A stretch of DNA of 64,000 nt from Jiangella endophytica (lineage in GTDB: Bacteria > Actinomycetota > Actinomycetes > Jiangellales > Jiangellaceae). This document shows positions 53,265 to 64,000 of this stretch, in pieces (position 1 is the first letter of the stretch; each line of letters starts with the position of its first letter). Where the stretch lies: the NCBI RefSeq assembly GCF_003427025.1, contig NZ_QVAI01000021.1, forward strand, positions 62,001 to 126,000, read 5' to 3'. Position numbers and translations under genes: made by a program. A model generated the notes under the pieces. It worked only from the letters and a program-made list of their open reading frames with translations, did no database searches and was not told where the DNA came from.

Positions 53265-54908
53265 TCACCAGTGCCGGTGGCCGCCGGTCCAGTGGAGCTG
53301 GACGCCGCGGGCGTCGAGGTGGGCCTGGAAGTCGCCGACGGCGGCCTCGCTCGCGGCGACGGCGTGCGGCTCCGTCGCCGCGTCCAGGCAGTAGGCCGCC
53401 AGCGTTCCCGCGGCCTCGCCCACGCTCCACTCGACGGGGTGCAGGCGGTAGCAGCCGTTGGTGATCTGGGTGGTGCCGATGTTCTTGGCCGCCGGCAGCA
53501 GGTTGCGGACCCGCCGCGGGATCAGCGCGCGCAGCGGGATCTGGAACGGCTGCGGGACGCCGCCCGCGCCCCGTCCGTCGCCGGTGGTGTGGTGGCGGTC
53601 GATCCAGAAGTAGTGCCCGACTCCCACGGTGTCCGGGAACGGCTGCGCGCCCGCGTCGCCGCGGTACGTCGTGGACACCTCCTGCTCGACGATCGTCTTC
53701 AGCGCCAGGACGCGCCGGGATTCGCGGATGTACGGGTGCATCGCGAACCCGTCGTCGGTGCCGGCGACGTCGGCCCGCAGCCGCAGGCCCGGCCAGCCGG
53801 TGCCGCCGTCGGGCCGGGGCGCGTCGGTCTGCAGCCAGTACAGCAGTGACCGGCTCAGCGCCTTCGCGCCGGCCCAGTGCTCGGCCGCGTCCGGCACGCC
53901 GAACAGCGGCCCGCCGACGTAGTCGTTCATCGGCCAGTTCACGACCACGACGTCGCTGCGGTAGAAGCCGTCGCGGAACTGCCGGCGCGCGGCGATCCGC
54001 CGGTAGTTCCACAGCTCGGGCGCGAGACCCATGTTCCGGTGGTCGAGGTCGATCTCGTCGCCGTCGACGTTCGGTGTCAGGGTGTAGACCCGCCCGGGCT
54101 TCCCCGCGGGCGTCACCGGCTCGCCGAAGCTGAGGATGCGCCGGCCGTCGAGCTGGGGCGGGCGCAGGTCGCGCCAGTACGCGTAGTCGTCCGGCCGGTC
54201 GATGGTGTGGTCCTCGCCCTCGAGGTGGTCGATCGCGAAGCACCAGCTCACGCCCTGCATGTCGGTAGGGTCGGCCGTCGGCCAGGCGCCGGGCTCACCG
54301 GTCGTCTCCCGCGACTCCCGGCCCGAGACGTGCTCGACGCCGCCGAGCGGCAGCAGGTCGCCGAGCTCCGTCGCGTCGAGGTAGTAGGAGGCGGTGATGT
54401 CGGTGAGCACGCCCGAGGCCGACCGCACCCGCACACCGGTGACGTGGTCGCCGTCGGTGCCGACCTCGATCGGCTCGGTGCGCATCAGCACGACGAGGCG
54501 GTCCGAGCTGCGATAGGGCTGGAGCAGATCGTCGATGACGGCGACGGCGACCCGCGGGTCGACGCTCACCGGGCTCACCCAGGCGTGGCCCGGGTTGAGC
54601 CGTGGGTCGGCTCGGGCCGCCTCGGTGAGCGGGTAGTGCGCGCGGTAGTAGGCGCGCAGCGCGTCGCGGAACTCCCGGTACGAGCGGTTGGCGCCGTCGG
54701 TCTCGATGTACAGGTGCTCGTCGGTCGGGACCAGCTGACTCGTCAGCTGTCCGCCGAGCCAGCCGGTCGGTTCGGTGATGACCACCCGCCGTCCCGCCCG
54801 CAGGGCGGCCAGGGCGGCGGAGACCCCGCCCAGCCCGCCACCGATCACCGCGACGTCTGCCTGGAGTTCCACGCTGAGCTCGCTTCCGGCCGGGAGTGGG
54901 TGTGTCAT
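53265..54908 (-). CDS. FAD-dependent oxidoreductase (PF12831-like)
   Basis: A 547-residue flavoprotein. The N-terminal Rossmann motif is DVAVIGGGLGGVSAALAALRAGRRVVITE, followed by GWLGGQLTSQLVP, the substrate-region YYLDATELGDLLPLGGVEHVSGRES, and C-terminal LLPAAKNIGTTQITNGCYRLHPVEWSVGEAAGTLA typical of this family. It has no signal peptide. Relatives occur in carbohydrate loci, but the reaction is unknown. It is divergent from a LacI regulator, with a TAGAATTCTA operator candidate between, so it is probably controlled together with the ABC importer. Confidence 0.88.
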   Translation of the reverse strand: MTHPLPAGSELSVELQADVAVIGGGLGGVSAALAALRAGRRVVITEPTGWLGGQLTSQLVPTDEHLYIETDGANRSYREFRDALRAYYRAHYPLTEAARADPRLNPGHAWVSPVSVDPRVAVAVIDDLLQPYRSSDRLVVLMRTEPIEVGTDGDHVTGVRVRSASGVLTDITASYYLDATELGDLLPLGGVEHVSGRESRETTGEPGAWPTADPTDMQGVSWCFAIDHLEGEDHTIDRPDDYAYWRDLRPPQLDGRRILSFGEPVTPAGKPGRVYTLTPNVDGDEIDLDHRNMGLAPELWNYRRIAARRQFRDGFYRSDVVVVNWPMNDYVGGPLFGVPDAAEHWAGAKALSRSLLYWLQTDAPRPDGGTGWPGLRLRADVAGTDDGFAMHPYIRESRRVLALKTIVEQEVSTTYRGDAGAQPFPDTVGVGHYFWIDRHHTTGDGRGAGGVPQPFQIPLRALIPRRVRNLLPAAKNIGTTQITNGCYRLHPVEWSVGEAAGTLAAYCLDAATEPHAVAASEAAVGDFQAHLDARGVQLHWTGGHRHW

Positions 54909-54958
54909 GCTGCCCGCGATGGCCGCCGGGACTGCGGCAACGGTAACCCGAGTTTTCG

Positions 54959-54968
54959 TAGAATTCTA
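54959..54968. promoter_or_regulatory. TAGAATTCTA palindrome, candidate operator of the second LacI regulator
   Basis: A perfect 10-bp palindrome in the 117-bp gap between the FAD oxidoreductase and lacI-type genes, with GAGTTTTCG on its left. Related half-sites (AAAATTCTA, TAGAACTTTT) recur upstream of the solute-binding protein gene at 56133-56168. Confidence 0.6.
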
Positions 54969-55025
54969 GGTTAGAGTTGCGGATCGCAGGCCTTTCCAGG
55001 CGGTCCGAACGAGAGGAGTCATGCC

Positions 55026-56045
55026 GTGTCGAACCGGGGGGCGAATCGTAAGAAGCCCTCGCTGGCCGACGTCGCGCAGATCGCGGGCGTGTCGATCTCG
55101 ACGGTCTCGAAGGTGGCCAACGGGAGCGCCGACGTCTCCGACGTCACGCGCCAGCGCGTCGAGCGGATCCTCAAGGAGCGCAGGTACGTCGCCACGAAGA
55201 AGCGCCGTGGCTCGCTGACCCCGGTGGCGGTGCTCGCCCGCGACATGCACTCGCCGTACACCCTCGACGTCATCAGGGGCGCGGTCGACGCCGCGGCGCC
55301 GGCGCAGGTCGACATCAACGTCTCCCTCCACCCCGACGACGCCCGCGACCTGCGCTGGATCGACGAACTCCACGCCGCCGGCCGGCGGGGCGTCATCGCC
55401 ATCACGTCGGTGCTCGACGAGCAGCAGCGGCAGCGGTTCGCCGGGCACGGCCTGCCGCTCGTGGTGATCGATCCGCTCAACAACCCCGACGAGGACACCT
55501 ACAGCGTCGGGGCCACGAACTGGGCCGGCGGCCTGGCGGCCACGGAACACCTACTCGAGCTCGGCCACCGCCGCATCGTCATGCTCAGTGGATTCGAGGC
55601 GGCCCTGGCCAGCCGGGCCCGGGTGTCGGGCTATCGCGCGGCGCTCAACGGCGCCGGCCGGGAGCACGACGAGCCACTGGTGGTCCCGGGCGACTTCACC
55701 TACGACTCCGGACTCGAGCTCGCCGCCGAGGTGCTCGCGGCCCCGGACCGCCCGACGGCGATCTTCGCGGCCTCGGACTTCCAGGCCCTCGGTGTCATCG
55801 AGGCGGCCCGCCGGGCCGGGCTGCGGGTGCCCGAGGACCTCAGCGTCATCGGTTTCGACGACCTCATCATGGCCCAGATGTCCTCGCCACCGCTGACCTC
55901 GGTGCGCCAGCCCCTCGACCTGATGGGCGCCACCGCGGTGGAGACGATCGTCGCGCTGCTGGCCGGTTCGACCGCCCGTCCGCACCACACCGAGCTCGCC
56001 ACCCGCCTGATGGTCCGCGGCTCGACCGCTGCGCCGCGGGCCTGA
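55026..56045 (+). CDS. LacI-family transcriptional regulator of the second carbohydrate locus
   Basis: A 339-residue regulator. The helix-turn-helix is PSLADVAQIAGVSISTVSKVANGSADV, the hinge follows at VATKKRRGSL, and the effector domain carries PTAIFAASDFQALGVIEAARRAG and EDLSVIGFDDLIMAQMSSPPLTSVRQP. The GTG at 55026 starts the chain. It lies between the FAD oxidoreductase gene and the ABC importer operon, both preceded by TTCTA/TAGAA sites, which makes it the likely local repressor of both. Its inducer is unknown. Confidence 0.92.
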   Translation: MSNRGANRKKPSLADVAQIAGVSISTVSKVANGSADVSDVTRQRVERILKERRYVATKKRRGSLTPVAVLARDMHSPYTLDVIRGAVDAAAPAQVDINVSLHPDDARDLRWIDELHAAGRRGVIAITSVLDEQQRQRFAGHGLPLVVIDPLNNPDEDTYSVGATNWAGGLAATEHLLELGHRRIVMLSGFEAALASRARVSGYRAALNGAGREHDEPLVVPGDFTYDSGLELAAEVLAAPDRPTAIFAASDFQALGVIEAARRAGLRVPEDLSVIGFDDLIMAQMSSPPLTSVRQPLDLMGATAVETIVALLAGSTARPHHTELATRLMVRGSTAAPRA

Positions 56046-56132: not shown

Positions 56133-56168
56133 CCGAAAATTCTATGGAACTTCTCTAGAACTTTTCGG
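56133..56168. promoter_or_regulatory. Inverted repeat CCGAAAA-TTCTA...TAGAAC-TTTTCGG, candidate operator/promoter
   Basis: CCGAAAATTCTA (56133-56144) and TAGAACTTTTCGG (56156-56168) form an inverted repeat with one bulged base. GAACTT is directly repeated inside. A -10-like TACTGT follows at 56179-56184, so a bound LacI protein would cover the -35 region. The rest of the 321-bp gap 56046-56366 looks like an untranslated leader. Confidence 0.6.
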
Positions 56169-56366: not shown

Positions 56367-57680
56367 ATGAAGCAACCCACGTTCCGCCGGCCCGTGTCCA
56401 CGACCATCGCGGTCCTGGGCTCCACCTGCCTGCTCCTGGCCGCGTGCAGCGGCGGCGACGGCGACACCGCCGGCGACGCCGGGGACGGCCCGGTCGACCT
56501 GCGGATGGTCATGTGGAGCGCCAACGAGGGGCACCACGAGATCTTCGAGCAGATCGCCGACGCCTACATCGACCAGCACCCGGACCTGGTCAGCAGCGTG
56601 ACCTTCGAGCCGATCACCGGCTCCAGCTACGTCAGCGCGCTCACCACCCAGATCGCCGGCGGGCAGGCCCCGGACCTCGCCTGGGTCTCCGAGGGCTACG
56701 CCGCCCAGTTCGTCCAGAGCGGCGTGTTCGCCGACCTGACGCCCACGTTCAGCGAGGCCGAGGGGTACGACCTCGACGACCTGCTGCCCGACGCCGTCGA
56801 GCTCTGGTCGGTCGACGGCGACCTGTACGGGTACCCGTTCTCCAACAGCCCGTTCGGCATCTTCGTCAACCTCGACCTACTCGCCGCCGCCGGTCAGCCC
56901 GTGCCGCGCGACCTGGTCGCCGGCGGCGAGTGGACCTGGGACCGGGTCATGGAGATCGCGGCGGCGACGGCCCAGAGCCAGGGCGTCGCCGGGTTCCAGC
57001 CGGCCGCCGACCCGTACACGATGTGGAACGACGCGCTCGGCGCGATGTGGATGTCCTGGGGCGCCCAGCCGTGGAGCGAGGACGGCGCCGAGTGCACGTT
57101 CGACTCCCCGGAGATGGTCGAGTTCTTCGACTGGTTCCACACGCAGATCTTCACCAACGGCGCGGTGCCCGGACCGGGCGAGGAGCACGACTTCGCCTCC
57201 GGCCAGGTGGCGGTCCGGATGGGGCAGCTCAGTGCCTCGACCGGCCTCGGCGACGCGTTCCAGTGGGACTTCCTCCCGCTGCCGGCCGGGCCCGAGGGGA
57301 CGGTCCCGGTGGTCGGGCAGGGTGGGGTCGGCGTCGTCGCCCGCGGCGACAACCCCGATGTCGCCGCGGACTTCCTGGCCTACTTCACCAACCCCGAGAA
57401 CTCGGCGCTGCTGGCGCAGTTCTTCCCGCCGCCGCGGGAGTCGCTGCTGACCGTCGAGGCGCTGACCGCCGCCGCGCCGGCGTTGTCCCCGGAGCAGCTC
57501 CAGGGCACGGTGATCGACCAGGCGCTCGAGGCGCGGACGAAGGCCGGCAACCCGGCGATGAGCGAGCTCACCGACGCGGTGCGCATGGACCTCGACGGGC
57601 TGTGGGTGGCCGACGGCGACGCGGAGACGGTGCTCGGCCAGGTGTGCGAGGACATCGCCCCGATCCTCTCGGGCAGCTGA
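56367..57680 (+). CDS. Extracellular sugar-binding lipoprotein of the second ABC importer
   Basis: A 437-residue solute-binding protein. The signal peptide ends in the lipobox LLAAC (Cys27), followed by an Asp/Gly-rich linker and the family-1 SBP fold: DLRMVMWSANEGHHEIFEQIADAY, GGQAPDLAWVSEGYAAQFV, and NSPFGIFVNLDLLAAAGQPVP. Trp-rich segments (WTWDR, MWMSWGAQPW) fit an oligosaccharide-binding cleft. The ATG at 56367 follows ACAGGAG. It is first in an SBP-permease-permease-exported-protein operon. The bound sugar is presumably a product of the two exported proteins at the end of the operon. Confidence 0.93.
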   Translation: MKQPTFRRPVSTTIAVLGSTCLLLAACSGGDGDTAGDAGDGPVDLRMVMWSANEGHHEIFEQIADAYIDQHPDLVSSVTFEPITGSSYVSALTTQIAGGQAPDLAWVSEGYAAQFVQSGVFADLTPTFSEAEGYDLDDLLPDAVELWSVDGDLYGYPFSNSPFGIFVNLDLLAAAGQPVPRDLVAGGEWTWDRVMEIAAATAQSQGVAGFQPAADPYTMWNDALGAMWMSWGAQPWSEDGAECTFDSPEMVEFFDWFHTQIFTNGAVPGPGEEHDFASGQVAVRMGQLSASTGLGDAFQWDFLPLPAGPEGTVPVVGQGGVGVVARGDNPDVAADFLAYFTNPENSALLAQFFPPPRESLLTVEALTAAAPALSPEQLQGTVIDQALEARTKAGNPAMSELTDAVRMDLDGLWVADGDAETVLGQVCEDIAPILSGS

Positions 57681-57685
57681 GCGGC

Positions 57686-58636
57686 GTGGTCGCCGACGTC
57701 GCCCAGGTCGCCGGCCGCGTGTCCGGAGGCGCCCCGCCGCGGCGCGCCTCCGGTGCCCGGCGCGCGGCCAGGCTGGACGCCCTGGTCGGGCTCGCGTTCG
57801 TGTCTCCGGTGGTCATCGGCGTGATCGTGCTCGGCCTGGTGCCGTTCGGGTTCGTCATCTGGTACGCGATGCACGAATGGACGCCGCTGATCGGGCAGTT
57901 CGACTGGGTCGGGCTGGACAACTTCAGCCGGCTGGCCGCCGACGACGCGGTCCGGTCGTCCTTCGTCACGACGTTCCAGTTCGCCGCCCTGCTCATGGTG
58001 CTGAACATCAGCCTCGCCATGGCGCTCGCGCTGCTGCTGAACCAGCGCCTGCGCGGCATCACGACCTTCCGCACGTTCTTCTTCTCGCCGATGGTCGTGT
58101 CGGCGGTGGCGTGGGTCGTCGTGTGGAACTACCTCGTGGCGAGCAACGGCGGGATCAACGGGTTCCTGTCCGTGCTCGGGATCGACGGGCCCAACTGGCT
58201 GCGCGACCCGTCGTGGGCGCTGGTGACGCTGGTGGTGATCCAGGTCTTCAAGGGCGTGGGGATGAACATGATCCTGTTCCTCGCGGCGCTGCAGGGCGTG
58301 CCCGCGGAGCTCAAGGAGTCCGCCCGCATCGACGGCGCGTCGCCGCGGCGGATCTTCCGCTCGATCACCCTGCCGCTCATCGCACCGACGATCCTGCTGG
58401 TCACGATGATCACCATGATCGGCGCGATGGACGTCTTCGTGCCGATCCAGATCATGACCCAGGGCGGTCCGGGCGACTCGACGATGGTGATCTCGTACCT
58501 GCTGTACCGCACGGCGTTCGAGCAGCAGGACTTCGGCTACGCGTCGGCGATCGGCGTGCTGCTGTTCGTCGTCGTGCTCGGGCTCGCCGCGCTGCAGTGG
58601 AGCACCCGCAACAGGTGGGTGCACGATGAGGTCTGA
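57686..58636 (+). CDS. Carbohydrate ABC transporter permease (CUT1, MalF-like)
   Basis: A 316-residue sugar permease with a basic N-terminus, six predicted helices (first LVGLAFVSPVVIGVIVLGLVP-like segment) and the EAA loop ELKESARIDGASPRRIFRSITLP. MTQGGPGDSTMV near residue 265 is diagnostic of the MalF side. The GTG at 57686, 5 bp after the SBP stop, gives the usual length; a GTG at 57719 is possible. Its 3' end overlaps the next permease by 11 bp, and the pair forms the channel of the importer. Confidence 0.92.
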   Translation: MVADVAQVAGRVSGGAPPRRASGARRAARLDALVGLAFVSPVVIGVIVLGLVPFGFVIWYAMHEWTPLIGQFDWVGLDNFSRLAADDAVRSSFVTTFQFAALLMVLNISLAMALALLLNQRLRGITTFRTFFFSPMVVSAVAWVVVWNYLVASNGGINGFLSVLGIDGPNWLRDPSWALVTLVVIQVFKGVGMNMILFLAALQGVPAELKESARIDGASPRRIFRSITLPLIAPTILLVTMITMIGAMDVFVPIQIMTQGGPGDSTMVISYLLYRTAFEQQDFGYASAIGVLLFVVVLGLAALQWSTRNRWVHDEV

Positions 58637-59537
58637 GACCCTGCCCGCCGCACCGGAGACCCGCCCGCGGCCGGCCCCGAGCCCCAGCGCCGCCCGGGCC
58701 CGGCGGCGCGGCCTGCTGACCAAGGTCGTGCTGTACGGCCTGCTGGTCGTGATGTCGGTGCCGTTCCTGTACCCGACGCTGTGGATGCTCTTCTCCGCGT
58801 TCAAGCCGGTCGACGAGATCTTCGCCGTCCCGCCGTCCCTGCTGCCGAGGGACTGGACCCTCGACGGCGTCTCGAAGATCTTCACCGTCACGCCGTTCGC
58901 GCGGCAGTACCTGAACTCGCTCTACATCGCCGTGGTGGTGACGATCGGCTCGATCATCGTGTGCTCGATCGCCGGGTACGCCTTCGCGCGCATCAGGTTC
59001 CCGTTCGCCGGGAAGCTCTTCCTCGTCCTGATGTCCGGGATGATGATCCCGGGCGAGGTCACGATCATCCCGATCTTCCGCTGGGTCGCCGACCTGGGCT
59101 GGATGGACACCCACCTGCCGCTGATCATCATCCCGATCTTCGGCCCGGCCAGCATCGTCGGGGTCTTCATCTTCCGGCAGTTCTTCCTCTCGCTGCCGCA
59201 GGAGCTGGAGGAGGCCGGGCGCCTGGACGGGCTCGGCCGGCTGGGGATCTTCCTGCGGATCGCCTTCCCGCTGTCCGGACCGGCGATCGCCGCCGTCGCG
59301 ATCATGAAGTTCCTGGCCTCGTTCAACATGTACTTCGAGCCACTGATCTTCCTGCGCAGTGAGGAGCTGTTCACGGTGGGCCTCGCGCTCACCCGCTACC
59401 AGGACAGCTACGGCGAACCGCTCCACAACACCCAGATCGGCGCCACCGCGCTCACCGTCGTCCCCATCCTCCTCGTCTTCCTGTTCGCCCAGCGCCAGTT
59501 CGTCGAGGGCCTGTCGCGAACCGGCCTCAAGGGCTGA
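58626..59537 (+). CDS. Carbohydrate ABC transporter permease (CUT1, MalG-like)
   Basis: A 303-residue permease with six predicted helices and the C-terminal FVEGLSRTGLKG typical of MalG-type subunits. Its EAA loop is ELEEAGRLDGLGRLGIFLRIAFP, in which the usual Asp-Gly-Ala is Asp-Gly-Leu. The ATG at 58626 lies inside the end of the upstream permease gene (11-bp overlap), so their translation is coupled. No ATPase gene follows; the first exported protein gene starts 51 bp downstream. Confidence 0.92.
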   Translation: MRSETLPAAPETRPRPAPSPSAARARRRGLLTKVVLYGLLVVMSVPFLYPTLWMLFSAFKPVDEIFAVPPSLLPRDWTLDGVSKIFTVTPFARQYLNSLYIAVVVTIGSIIVCSIAGYAFARIRFPFAGKLFLVLMSGMMIPGEVTIIPIFRWVADLGWMDTHLPLIIIPIFGPASIVGVFIFRQFFLSLPQELEEAGRLDGLGRLGIFLRIAFPLSGPAIAAVAIMKFLASFNMYFEPLIFLRSEELFTVGLALTRYQDSYGEPLHNTQIGATALTVVPILLVFLFAQRQFVEGLSRTGLKG

Positions 59538-59588: not shown

Positions 59589-61829
59589 ATGACCGCCGCA
59601 CCCGACCCGCACCCCTTCCTGCCGCCGCTGACCCGGCGGTCCTTCCTCGGCGGCGTGGGCGCCGCGACGGCGACGCTCGCGGCACTGGCCGCCGGTGCGC
59701 CCCGCGCCTTCGCCACGTCGGCCGGGACGGTGCTGCCACTGGTGACGCCGTTGCCGGCCGGCGCGCCGGACCGCACGGCGTTCGACCCGCACGAGCAGGT
59801 GTTCGCCTCGTACCTGATGATCCTGGCGCCACTGGCGAACAGCGTCGTCGACGACGACCCGGAGCGGTACGGGTGGATGGAGGACGGCTGGTGGCGCAGC
59901 CCCAACGAGCCGTTCAACTCCCGGATCATGGAGCACGTCGCCACGCTGAGCTGGTTCTACGCCCACGCCCGGCCGTGGAACCCGTACCACCTGGACCCCA
60001 ACCTGCTCGGCCGCCTGGACGCGGCGCTCACGTACTACCTGGGGCTGCAGCACGACGACGGCTCGTGGCCGGAGTACCGCTGGGAGGAGCACGGCCTCGC
60101 CTCGACCGGGTTCGGGACGGTCGCGTTGTCCGCCACCCTGCGGGATCTGATCGCGGTGGGTGCGCTGCCGGACCGCCGCACCGAGATCGAGGCGGCGATC
60201 CGGGCCTCCTCGGCCTGGCTGGTCGACCTCGCGCGGCCGCACTGGGCGCTGCCCGTCCAGTACGCCAACCAGGTCGTCGCGGGTCTCGCCGGAGTCGCCC
60301 AGGCGGCCACGGTGCTCGGCGACCCGTCGCTGTCCGCGGCGCTCCCGGACCGCTGCGCACTGCTGCTCGAGCAGGGACAGGCGCCGGCCGGCTACTTCCA
60401 CGAGCCACTGGCGTACGACGCCGGCTACAACTTCGACGTCATGCTGCCCGACCTCGGCGACCTCTACGCGCACACCGAGGATCCGTCGGTGGTGGAGCTG
60501 GCCCGCCGCTGGGCGCGGTGGTTCGGCTACGTGGTCGTCCTCGAACCGGGGGAGACGTACGGCTTCCACGTCGCGGCCGCGAGCGCCCGCAACGCCACGA
60601 CGACCTTCTTCCCACGGCCCGGGGACGCGACCGACCGGGTCGCGCTCGGCCGCGTGTTCCTGCCGCTCGTCCCCGAGCTGGGCGCGTTCTACTCGCCCAC
60701 GGAGGAGAAGACGGCGGCGCGCGCGGCGTGGTCGGTGTCGCCGGACCCGGTCGAGCCGCGGGCCAAGCAGGACACGTCGCCGCGGCTGTACATGCACGTC
60801 CCGCAGGCGCCCGCGGGCGTCGACGCCGACGAGCGTGACGCCCGGGTCGCGCAGCTGCCCTACCTGCGCGACGACACGTTCACCGAGGTCCGCGAGGGCA
60901 CGATCGACCAGCACGTCGTCTTCGTCCGCCGTCCCGCCTACTACCTCGCCGGCCAGTACGGCGTCCGGCCCTACAACCGCCAGCGGATGGGCCCGGCGCT
61001 GCTGTGGCACCCCGAGGCGGGCACCGTCGTCCTGACGCTCAACAACTTCACCGACGACAGCTGGAACACCATCGCGGCGACCGGGGTGGAGTCCGCGCGC
61101 AGCGCCGTCGTGGCGACGCACCACGACGGTCCCGACGCTGCCGGCCCGGAGATCCCGCGGTCCGAGCTGCACGCGTACGAGGGCGTGTTCACGACGCGCT
61201 ACGTCACCGAGGACGGCACCATCACGACGGACGTCGCGCACTGGCACGACGGCATCCGCCGGACGGTGTCCGCCGCCGGCGCGGCGAGGGATCAGCTCCC
61301 GCTCGTGCTGCGCGACGGCGACGAGCTCGCCCTCGCCGACGGCACGCCCGTCGCACCGGGCGGCGACGCGACGGCGACCACGTCGGGCCTGGTGCTGACC
61401 CGCGCGGGCGTCAGATTCGTGTTCTCCTGGGGCACCGACCTGCCGGTGACGCTCACCGCGACGGACCGGGTCTTCTTCCCCGACGCGAGCCGCCGGCAGC
61501 ATGTCCTCACCGTCGCGCACGCGGGAACGCTGACGACCGAGATCACCGCGGTCCGCCTCGCTGAGCTCGAGCCGGGCGAGCTCGCGGTCGCCGCCACCGC
61601 CCACGCCGTCCGCAACGGTGACCGGCACCGCACGGCCGTGCACGTGACCAACCTCGAGGACGGCCCGGTCGCGATCACCATCAGGTCGTCCGCCGGGTCG
61701 CGGACGCACGACGGCGTCGCTCCCGGCGCGGGCGTGTACGAGCTCTTCGACTCGTCCCGGCCGGTGCGGCACGTGGTCGTGAGCGCGACGGCCGGCGGGC
61801 CGGTCACGGTCCGCCGCATCCGGCTCTGA
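59589..61829 (+). CDS. Tat-exported protein, predicted polysaccharide-active (toroid plus beta-sandwich), paralogue 1
   Basis: A 746-residue exported protein. The Tat signal is TRRSFLGGVGAATATL and cleavage follows PRAFA. Residues 60-400 are helix-rich with aromatic and His patches (RIMEHVATLSWFY, GYFHEPLAYDAGYNFDVMLPDLGDLY), like an (alpha/alpha) toroid. From about 400 the chain becomes beta-rich (TFTEVREGTIDQHVVFVRR, PALLWHPEAGTVV, TTRYVTEDGTITTDVAHWHDG), like the C-terminal sandwich of polysaccharide lyases. I do not recognise the exact family. It follows the ABC importer and is repeated by a close paralogue at 61895. AACGGAGTC precedes the ATG. Confidence 0.7.
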   Translation: MTAAPDPHPFLPPLTRRSFLGGVGAATATLAALAAGAPRAFATSAGTVLPLVTPLPAGAPDRTAFDPHEQVFASYLMILAPLANSVVDDDPERYGWMEDGWWRSPNEPFNSRIMEHVATLSWFYAHARPWNPYHLDPNLLGRLDAALTYYLGLQHDDGSWPEYRWEEHGLASTGFGTVALSATLRDLIAVGALPDRRTEIEAAIRASSAWLVDLARPHWALPVQYANQVVAGLAGVAQAATVLGDPSLSAALPDRCALLLEQGQAPAGYFHEPLAYDAGYNFDVMLPDLGDLYAHTEDPSVVELARRWARWFGYVVVLEPGETYGFHVAAASARNATTTFFPRPGDATDRVALGRVFLPLVPELGAFYSPTEEKTAARAAWSVSPDPVEPRAKQDTSPRLYMHVPQAPAGVDADERDARVAQLPYLRDDTFTEVREGTIDQHVVFVRRPAYYLAGQYGVRPYNRQRMGPALLWHPEAGTVVLTLNNFTDDSWNTIAATGVESARSAVVATHHDGPDAAGPEIPRSELHAYEGVFTTRYVTEDGTITTDVAHWHDGIRRTVSAAGAARDQLPLVLRDGDELALADGTPVAPGGDATATTSGLVLTRAGVRFVFSWGTDLPVTLTATDRVFFPDASRRQHVLTVAHAGTLTTEITAVRLAELEPGELAVAATAHAVRNGDRHRTAVHVTNLEDGPVAITIRSSAGSRTHDGVAPGAGVYELFDSSRPVRHVVVSATAGGPVTVRRIRL

Positions 61830-61894
61830 CCCTCCCCAGCGCACCGACCAGCGCCGCTCCGGCGGCGTCCCCGAGACACGGAACGGAGTCGACG

Positions 61895-64000
61895 ATGACC
61901 GCCGCACCCGAGTACCCGCGCCGTTTCCCGCCGCCGCTGAGCCGGCGATCCTTCCTCGGCGGCGTGGGCGCCGCGACGGCGACGCTGGCGGGCGTGGCCG
62001 CCGGCGCGCCCCGGGCCTTCGCCACGTCGGCCGGGACGGTGCTGCCGCTGGTGGCGGTGTTGCCGGCGGGGGAGCCGGACCGGACGGCGTTCGCGCCGCG
62101 CGAGCAGGTCTTCGGGTCGTACCTGATGATCCTGGCGCCGCTGGCCAACAGCGTCGTCGACGACGACCCGGAGCTGTACGGCTGGATGGAGGACGGCTGG
62201 TGGCGCACGCCGAACGATCCGCGCAACTCCCGGATCATGGAGCACGTCGCCACCCTGAGCTGGTTCCTGACGCACGACCGGCCCTGGAACCCGTACCACC
62301 TCGACCCGAACCTGCTGGGACGCCTGGACGCCGCGCTCACCTATTACCTGGGCCTGCAGGGGCCGACCGGCGCCTGGCCGGTCACCTACCAGGAGGAGAG
62401 CCTGGCCACCACCGGGTTCGGGCTGGTGGCGCTCGGGGCGGTCTATCGCGACCTCGACGAGGCCGGCCTGCTGCCGCAGCGCCGCACCGAGCTCGCGGCG
62501 TCGATGCGCGCCGCGGCGACCTGGCTGATGGATACCTCCCGCTGGCACTGGAACCTTCCGCTCGAGCTGGTGAACCAGCTCGTCGGAGGGCTCGCCGGTG
62601 TGGCCCAGGCCGCCGCGGTCCTCGGTGACGCCTCGATCGCGGCCGGCCTCGACGACCGGATCGCCCTGCTCGCCGAGCACGGGCAGGCGCCGGCCGGCTA
62701 CTTCCACGAGCCCCTGGGCTTCGACCTCGGCTACAACTACGAGGTCATGCTGCCGGACCTCGGTGACCTGTACGAGTGGACGGGCCACCCGCTGCTGGTC
62801 GAGATGGCCCGGCGCTGGGCCGACTTCGCGCAGTACGTGCTGCTGCCGGAGCCGGGCGCACCCGGCTGGGTCAGCTACGGCGCGGCCTGCATGCGCAACT
62901 CCGCCTCGACCCGGACCGACGACGCCGCCGACGACCGCGACCGCGCCGCGCTCGGCCGGCTCTTCGTCGCCGACGTCCCCGCGCTGGGCGCGTTCCACAT
63001 GTCCGCCGAGGCCAAGACGGCCGGCCGCACGGCCTGGGCGGCCGACCCCGCTCCCGTGCCGCCACGGGTCAAGGGCGACACGTCGCCGCGTCTGTACATG
63101 CACGTGCCCCGCGCGCCGCGGAACGTCGCGGAGTCCGAGCGCCGGGCGCTGATCGCGGACCTGCGGCCCGGCCGCGACCAGGTGTTCACCGAGTACCGCC
63201 GCGGGACGATCGACCAGCAGCTGCTGTTCGTGCGCCGGCCCGGCTACTACCTCGCCGCCCTGCTCGGCGAGCGTGGATCGGCGCGCGTGCGGTCCGGGCC
63301 GGGGCTGCTGTGGCACCCGGACACCGGCGCGATCGTGGCGTCGTTCAACAACGCCGACGACGACCACTGGACCACCGTGACGGCGGCGGGCGTCGACGCG
63401 GCCCTGACCGACGTCGTCGCCACCTTCCACGACGGCGCCGGCCCCGGCGGCCCGGCGCTCGACCCGTCGCTGCTCGGCGCGGTCGCCGGGGTGTTCACCG
63501 GGCGGTACGTGAGCGGCGGCGGCACCGTCACGACCGACGTCGTGCACCGGCACGACGGGATCGCGCGTACGGTCCAGGCGGCCGGCCCGGCGACCGAGGT
63601 GGTCCCGCTGATGGTCCAGGCCGGCGACGTGCTGGAGTTCGCCGACGGCACGCGGGTGCCGCCGGGGACGACCGCCACGGCCACCGCCACCGGGTTCAGC
63701 CTGACCCGCCGCGGTCTCCGGGTCCAGTTCTCGTGGGGTGCCGAGCGTGCGGCGAGCCTGACCGCGACCGGGCGGCGCTACTTTCCCGATCGCACGCACG
63801 AGCACCACGTGCTGCGGGTCGAGCACGACGGCGGTCTCACGGTCGAGATCACGACCGTCAGCCTCGCCGACGCCGGCGGCGACGAGGTCGCGGCCGCGGC
63901 GACGGCGCACGAGTGGACCGGCCCGGACGGCGCCGCCGGCCTGGCGGTGCACGTCGTGAACCTCGAGCCGGCGCCGGTGGACGTGCGGGTCGTCACGTCG
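61895..64000 (+). CDS. Tat-exported protein, paralogue 2 of the same predicted family (3' truncated by window)
   Basis: The frame is open from the ATG at 61895 to the window end (702 codons). It is a clear duplicate of the upstream gene: the leader AACGGAGTCGACG and first residues MTAAP are nearly the same, the Tat signal RRSFLGGVGAATATLA is identical, and LDPNLLGRLDAALTYYLGLQ, GQAPAGYFHEPL, VMLPDLGDLY and DTSPRLYMHVP are shared. Differences concentrate in loops (QEESLATTGFGLVALGAV, WHWNLPLELVNQLVGG), so the two may act on different parts of one substrate. Some 45 residues are missing if it has the same length. Function as for paralogue 1. Confidence 0.75.
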   Translation, partial: MTAAPEYPRRFPPPLSRRSFLGGVGAATATLAGVAAGAPRAFATSAGTVLPLVAVLPAGEPDRTAFAPREQVFGSYLMILAPLANSVVDDDPELYGWMEDGWWRTPNDPRNSRIMEHVATLSWFLTHDRPWNPYHLDPNLLGRLDAALTYYLGLQGPTGAWPVTYQEESLATTGFGLVALGAVYRDLDEAGLLPQRRTELAASMRAAATWLMDTSRWHWNLPLELVNQLVGGLAGVAQAAAVLGDASIAAGLDDRIALLAEHGQAPAGYFHEPLGFDLGYNYEVMLPDLGDLYEWTGHPLLVEMARRWADFAQYVLLPEPGAPGWVSYGAACMRNSASTRTDDAADDRDRAALGRLFVADVPALGAFHMSAEAKTAGRTAWAADPAPVPPRVKGDTSPRLYMHVPRAPRNVAESERRALIADLRPGRDQVFTEYRRGTIDQQLLFVRRPGYYLAALLGERGSARVRSGPGLLWHPDTGAIVASFNNADDDHWTTVTAAGVDAALTDVVATFHDGAGPGGPALDPSLLGAVAGVFTGRYVSGGGTVTTDVVHRHDGIARTVQAAGPATEVVPLMVQAGDVLEFADGTRVPPGTTATATATGFSLTRRGLRVQFSWGAERAASLTATGRRYFPDRTHEHHVLRVEHDGGLTVEITTVSLADAGGDEVAAAATAHEWTGPDGAAGLAVHVVNLEPAPVDVRVVTS

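Follow-up and report, generated by a model that had tools for sequence, protein, structure and literature searches.

The analyzed window, a 64,000-nucleotide stretch covering positions 62001-126000 of contig C14 from the G+C-rich, 7.85-Mb genome of Jiangella endophytica, ends in a locus with the gene order FADox/LacI/SBP/permease/permease/A/B. The first gene encodes a cytosolic FAD-dependent oxidoreductase of the PF12831 type (FADox; 53265..54908, minus strand), a conserved partner of the exported enzyme. It is followed on the plus strand by a LacI-type regulator (55026..56045), a sugar-type solute-binding lipoprotein whose nearest solved sequences include oligosaccharide binders (SBP; 56367..57680), ABC permease 1 (57686..58636), ABC permease 2 (58626..59537; PF00528), and two large open reading frames, A (59589..61829; 746 aa) and B (61895..64000, running past the window; 750 aa). 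Pfam matches (PF12831 at 1e-99, PF13377 at 1e-41, PF13416 at 2e-27, PF00528 at 3e-15) confirmed this order and with it the original prediction that the pair closes an SBP-permease-permease operon beside genes for LacI and an FAD oxidoreductase. Homologues were used to place permease 1; this gene overlaps permease 2, and its start is uncertain (GTG at 57686 or 57719). Both A and B are coding, with G+C contents by codon position of 0.73/0.53/0.96 and 0.75/0.55/0.96, respectively.

A candidate LacI operator, CGTAGAATTCTAGG (54957..54970, unstranded), lies between FADox and LacI, and the near-identical CCTAGAATTCTCGG was found in a related cassette on contig C78 of the same genome; with two sites only, this is a weak assignment. 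An A+T-rich stretch upstream of the SBP gene (56137..56163, unstranded) carries related half-sites, AAATTCTATGGAACTTCTCTAGAACTT, and is likewise a weak candidate. A LacI operator common to several genomes was sought and could not be established.

Contig C14 extends 7 kb beyond the window, so that the full length of B is available (L009:9896-12148), with the stop codon at L009:12148, which is position 126147 of the contig. Directly after B, and overlapping its stop codon in the tetranucleotide GTGA (L009:12145-12148), comes P0005 (L009:12145-13662), whose product has an ADP-ribosylglycohydrolase fold (PF03747, 2e-30) and is extended at its C terminus. A gene of this type is paired in the same way with a family enzyme in Pseudactinotalea (L040:14890-16419). 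The region 3' of P0005 contains the DUF2264 gene P0003 and, on the opposite strand, genes for a BadF-type kinase, a GFO/IDH/MocA oxidoreductase, and a SIS protein. A two-piece remnant of a polysaccharide-pyruvyl-transferase-like gene (L009:13689-13976, just past the window; best E 2e-10, to L143:12973-14262) sits between the ADP-ribosylglycohydrolase-like gene and DUF2264.

Two old subtypes with probably homogenized leaders

Proteins A and B are 60% identical, and by inspection both begin with a twin-arginine (Tat) leader consisting of (T/S)RRSFLGG, a hydrophobic stretch, and an AFA cleavage-like site, as expected for the exported paralogues with a common signal that had been proposed. The motifs GYFHEPL, VMLPDLGDLY, and DTSPRLYMHVP, described earlier as shared, indeed occur in both proteins and at the same residue numbers (268, 284, and 395). 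The leaders are alike as well, but ordinary paralogy does not account for the likeness. Over the first ~150 codons the two genes share 86-91% of their DNA sequence, including 72-84% of third codon positions, compared with 55-76% DNA identity over the remainder. The ribosome-binding site just 5' of A is also similar to that of B. The corresponding gene pair of Pseudactinotalea terrae has no such identity step, and its leaders are only 47% identical at the amino acid level. The step at ~150 codons, together with its absence from the P. terrae pair, suggests that the 5' ends of A and B (59589..60038 and 61895..62344, both on the plus strand) were probably homogenized by recent gene conversion in the Jiangella lineage.

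The tree joins A to P. terrae copy 1, Myceligenerans, and Microbacterium, and B to P. terrae copy 2, Occultella, and Ruania. A recent tandem duplication was therefore rejected, since A and B fall into separate supported clades that each contain one Pseudactinotalea copy. A and B are two old, separate subtypes that have been kept side by side. Because both have been retained together, they probably either attack different linkages within the same polymer or form an endo/exo pair.

An unannotated family with a predicted lyase-type fold

The A/B family has no model among the 24736 models of Pfam or the 18950 models of NCBIfam. Searches of Pfam, NCBIfam, and PDB sequences with A, B, and their profiles returned only chance-level or weak matches (CnrR, squalene cyclases, TilS_C, GH127), and hmmsearch of profile A2 against all PDB sequences found no lyase up to E 10, the solved PL33 and PL35 members included. 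Neither the heparinase II/III and alginate-lyase models of Pfam, in scans of 48 members, nor Lyase_8, scanned against A, B, and 48 relatives at every threshold tried, gave a match. The earlier view that the two proteins fit no named family was thus borne out, and the term undescribed holds with respect to Pfam, NCBIfam, and PDB sequence searches. A literature search on new polysaccharide lyase families turned up known families only. In one scan of 84,980 genomes, 79 loci were found, most of them in Actinomycetota; deeply branching members come from Bacteroidota, Verrucomicrobiota, Planctomycetota, Acidobacteriota, and other groups. The family is rare (11 of 394 sampled genomes of the host's class, mainly of the genus Jiangella); the host genome itself has seven matches. 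Members from Nonomuraea, Thermocatellispora, and Phytoactinopolyspora (L098, L101, L102, L106, L109, L111, L114) carry a C-terminal extension of ~350 aa, which ends in a domain weakly resembling 3-keto-disaccharide hydrolase (E 0.007 in L109, below the cut-off).

The AlphaFold model of A (mean pLDDT 92, pTM 0.88) consists of toroid helices followed by beta-sandwich strands, with an (alpha/alpha) toroid at residues ~60-430, a beta-sandwich at ~431-660, and an extra C-terminal beta domain at ~661-746. Nearly all top Foldseek matches of this model were two-domain lyases, including PL8 (8fyg, E 8e-14; 1rw9, TM 0.50), PL17 (7bjt, E 2.5e-13), PL35 (8khv), and PL33 (8r6z); xanthan lyase, PL21, PL15, PL12, and DS-epimerase were also on the list. 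Across both domains, VIA-align gave Z scores of 17.3 for PL33 (481 residues), 17.2 for PL17 (487 residues), and 17.2 for PL35 (456 residues). The toroid alone matched sugar epimerases with Z 18 over ~300 residues, scoring as high as the two-domain lyases. A distant Opitutia member, 27% identical to A, was modeled separately (pLDDT 90.5) from an alignment that contained other family members too. Its best VIA-align match was PL12 heparinase III (Z 21 over 454 residues), followed by PL39, PL8, PL35, and PL33, and its first 40 structural matches were two-domain lyases plus DS-epimerase. The alignments to the lyase superfamily of toroid plus antiparallel beta-sandwich thus span 450-490 residues at Z 16-21, and the polysaccharide-lyase layout originally predicted reappears in two reliable models and in both structure searches. 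The PDB structures that match across both domains are polysaccharide lyases (PL8, PL17, PL33, PL35, PL12, PL15) and the related DS-epimerase. A and B may therefore be placed in the superfamily of (alpha/alpha)-toroid plus beta-sandwich enzymes that comprises PL8, PL12, PL15, PL17, PL21, PL33, PL35, and PL39.

The candidate active site of A comprises N227, H271, Y280, R334, and H474. Twelve positions are invariant in 83 members, namely W130, Y133, G158, N227, Q228, G268, Y280, R334, G458, G478, W492, and P571. The N227-Y280 spacing is 53 residues in 69 of the 83 and the Y280-R334 spacing is 54 in 70. In the lyase superfamily the toroid holds an Asn and a Tyr ~53-59 residues apart, and N227 and Y280 show this arrangement; the catalytic pair is separated by 53 residues in PL33 and PL39, 54 in PL35, PL12, and PL15, 57 in PL17, and 59 in PL8 (PMC11848413, PMC12088678). 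In four PL8 genes that were measured, a His lies 9 residues before the Tyr and an Arg 54 after it, the same as H271-Y280-R334 of A. By sequence correspondence, H474 of A lies ~43 residues into the beta domain, compared with 42 for H444 of PL33. When the invariant letters were shuffled, such an N-Y-R set appeared in 8 of 100,000 trials, a rough null chosen after the pattern had been seen. A conserved Tyr/His/Asn set had been named as a check on lyase activity; Asn227 and Tyr280 are invariant (83/83), but His474, although present in A and B, occurs in only 65 members and is missing in 18. His271 is found in 21 members, A and B among them, and is replaced by Tyr in 51. These data support a correspondence between the putative active site of A and B and those of the lyases. 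Sequence-level membership in PL8, PL12/15/17/21, PL33, or PL35 was looked for and not found; a mode of action like that of these enzymes is supported by the fold and the residues.

Proposed function and alternative readings

We propose, with a probability of about 0.6, that A and B are lyases which attack a uronic-acid polysaccharide after secretion and represent a family modeled by neither Pfam nor NCBIfam; their elimination products would then be imported. On mechanism and ALTERNATIVES, we prefer beta-elimination outside the cell with subsequent import, and regard a hydrolase of the same fold or an epimerase/dehydratase as possible alternatives. Asn227, aided by Arg334 and, in A and B, by His271, would neutralize the uronic-acid carboxylate at subsite +1. 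Tyr280, together with His474 in most members, would take the C5 proton and give one to the leaving glycosidic oxygen, and the chain would be cut by beta-elimination. The fragments may then be bound by the lipoprotein SBP, imported through the two permeases, and processed further in the cytosol, where in the window copy the DUF2264 glucuronate-dehydratase-family enzyme could convert saturated GlcA ends. FADox would act on some product of the imported sugar, and LacI would regulate the whole set. What the analysis showed directly is the type of export signal, the predicted fold, the conservation of residues, and the association of the genes; the elimination chemistry, the uronic-acid substrate, and the roles of FADox and the regulator are what we infer.

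A substrate hint comes from P0003 (PF10022, 4e-133), which matches the beta-D-glucuronic acid dehydratase (GDH) 9o4u (E 8e-27) and keeps the GDH active-site segments NNW and GRSxTYR in alignment with it. The protein has no signal sequence and belongs to a different sequence family from A and B. The former GH154 family makes terminal GlcA ready for unsaturated-uronyl hydrolases (PMC12269599); such hydrolases (GH88/105) are absent from the cassette, and the genome has two, on other contigs. A glucuronic-acid-containing polymer is thus weakly favored for the window copy. The hint is a weak one because P0003 does not regularly accompany the family: DUF2264 lies 3' of the enzyme gene in the Jiangella window copy only, and one other homologous locus (L095) has a relative nearby.

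The two-domain fold alone would also suit a glycoside hydrolase, GH127-like or unnamed, that hydrolyzes its substrate via carboxylates such as E115, E272, and E319, and toroid enzymes do include many hydrolases. At the positions of E272 and E319 every one of the 83 members has an acidic residue, E115 is present in 81, and weak Pfam GH127 matches were seen in 8 of 48 members (best E 0.0012). However, the two-domain structural matches of both models are mostly lyases, and elimination enzymes carry the Asn/Tyr/Arg set that is invariant in the family, so that we consider hydrolysis unlikely. An identity with the GH127 beta-L-arabinofuranosidases, which share the toroid and beta-sandwich, was rejected, since A and B lack the conserved Cys/Zn site and no Cys is among the invariant positions of the 83 members.

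Somewhat less probable again is a role in which A and B share the enolate chemistry on uronic acids without cutting the chain, as a C5-epimerase of the DS-epi1 type or a terminal dehydratase (GH154/GDH). The full-length structural matches include DS-epi1 (6hzn), and a dehydratase-family gene, P0003, adjoins. In BcGDH, activity is lost on mutation of N176, N177, Y229, or R285 (PMC12269599). The N-Y-R spacings of this enzyme, 53 and 56, are close to the 53 and 54 of A. In contrast, A and B are exported and have an added beta-sandwich, and their sequence family is not that of the unexported GDH relative P0003. Lyases predominate among the two-domain matches, and secretion, the presence of two enzymes per locus, and the adjoining sugar importer fit a depolymerizing enzyme better.

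Least probable of the three is that A and B do not form a family of their own but belong to PL8 as highly diverged members. The best Foldseek E-value and the His-Tyr and Tyr-Arg spacings would agree with this, as would a low-threshold profile alignment in which the RRP motifs coincide and N227 and R334 fall on the Asn and the Arg of PL8. On the other side, Lyase_8 is unmatched, His271 is mostly Tyr in the family, VIA-align ranks PL8 first for neither model, and the aromatic-patch motif NWxxWxIGxP, present as NWx-W-x-IG in all five PL8 genes, is by inspection absent from A. Profile comparison with PL8 was not significant overall, its register alone being suggestive. Alignment by hhalign against five PL8 proteins was not significant for the toroid (P 0.14); at full length it gave E 2e-4, confined to residues 12-164 with the leader included.

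If A and B are lyases, as we prefer, they have close parallels in several known families. The PL8 chondroitin AC, hyaluronate, and xanthan lyases share the two-domain fold, the N/H/Y/R set of A and B, and secretion by actinobacteria, whereas their N-Y spacing is 59 or 66 rather than 53, and the A/B family sits in an ABC/FADox cassette. The PL33 and PL35 glycosaminoglycan lyases have the same two domains, an N-Y spacing of 53-54, and a beta-domain His, but this His is not invariant in the A/B family and sequence similarity is undetectable. The heparinase II/III and alginate lyases of PL12, PL15, PL17, and PL21 agree in fold and in the Asn/Tyr/His pattern, PL12 being best for the Opitutia member, although the A/B family does not match their Pfam models. 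A and B thus represent a family that lacks annotation, although its fold and its probable chemistry are of a known class, and their locus is modular. With no Pfam or NCBIfam model, members would be annotated as hypothetical proteins. A lyase function would widen the known range of soil acidic-polysaccharide degraders and provide a testable case for the role of the flavin oxidoreductase that recurs in glycan uptake loci.

Recurrence of the FADox cassette

Homologues of FADox, SBP, and the permeases surround the family gene in 39 of 77 scored loci. The family gene lies 3' of permease 2 on the same strand in 18 loci and is divergent from LacI in 18. No single substrate emerged from the homologue neighborhoods, in which Sde182-like, GH2, CBM96, and other proteins vary by locus. 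The host genome has three FADox-SBP-permease cassettes with a family member (contigs C14, C20, and C78) and 15 copies of the PF12831 oxidoreductase (47-100% identity), mostly in glycan/ABC uptake loci; in addition to these three contigs, they lie on C17, C6, C22, C1 (two), C11, C89, C9, C34, C7, C19, and C8. Around these copies we found beta-helix pectate-lyase-like enzymes, GH16, GH38, a GH63-like protein, and a BNR protein, as well as GH3-, GH2-, sulfatase-, and sugar-acid-dehydratase-like proteins recognized by inspection of their sequence starts. A literature search on DUF2264 and PF12831 revealed no relevant role.

Elsewhere in the host genome, a sister cassette (L146) has FADox, SBP, and two permeases followed by an exported rhamnogalacturonase/pectate-lyase-like protein, so that the exported slot of the FADox module also serves this type of polysaccharide-cutting enzyme. 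The chances appear even that a broader reading holds in full, in which A and B form a new polysaccharide lyase family and FADox-SBP-permease-permease serves actinobacteria generally as an uptake module whose slot for a secreted polysaccharide-cutting enzyme is exchangeable, its flavin enzyme carrying out a shared step on the imported sugar. In Occultella and Ruania, a protein of ~543 aa without a Pfam match is encoded near the B-type enzyme (L041:5889-7514, L047:13671-15299, L048:1587-3275).
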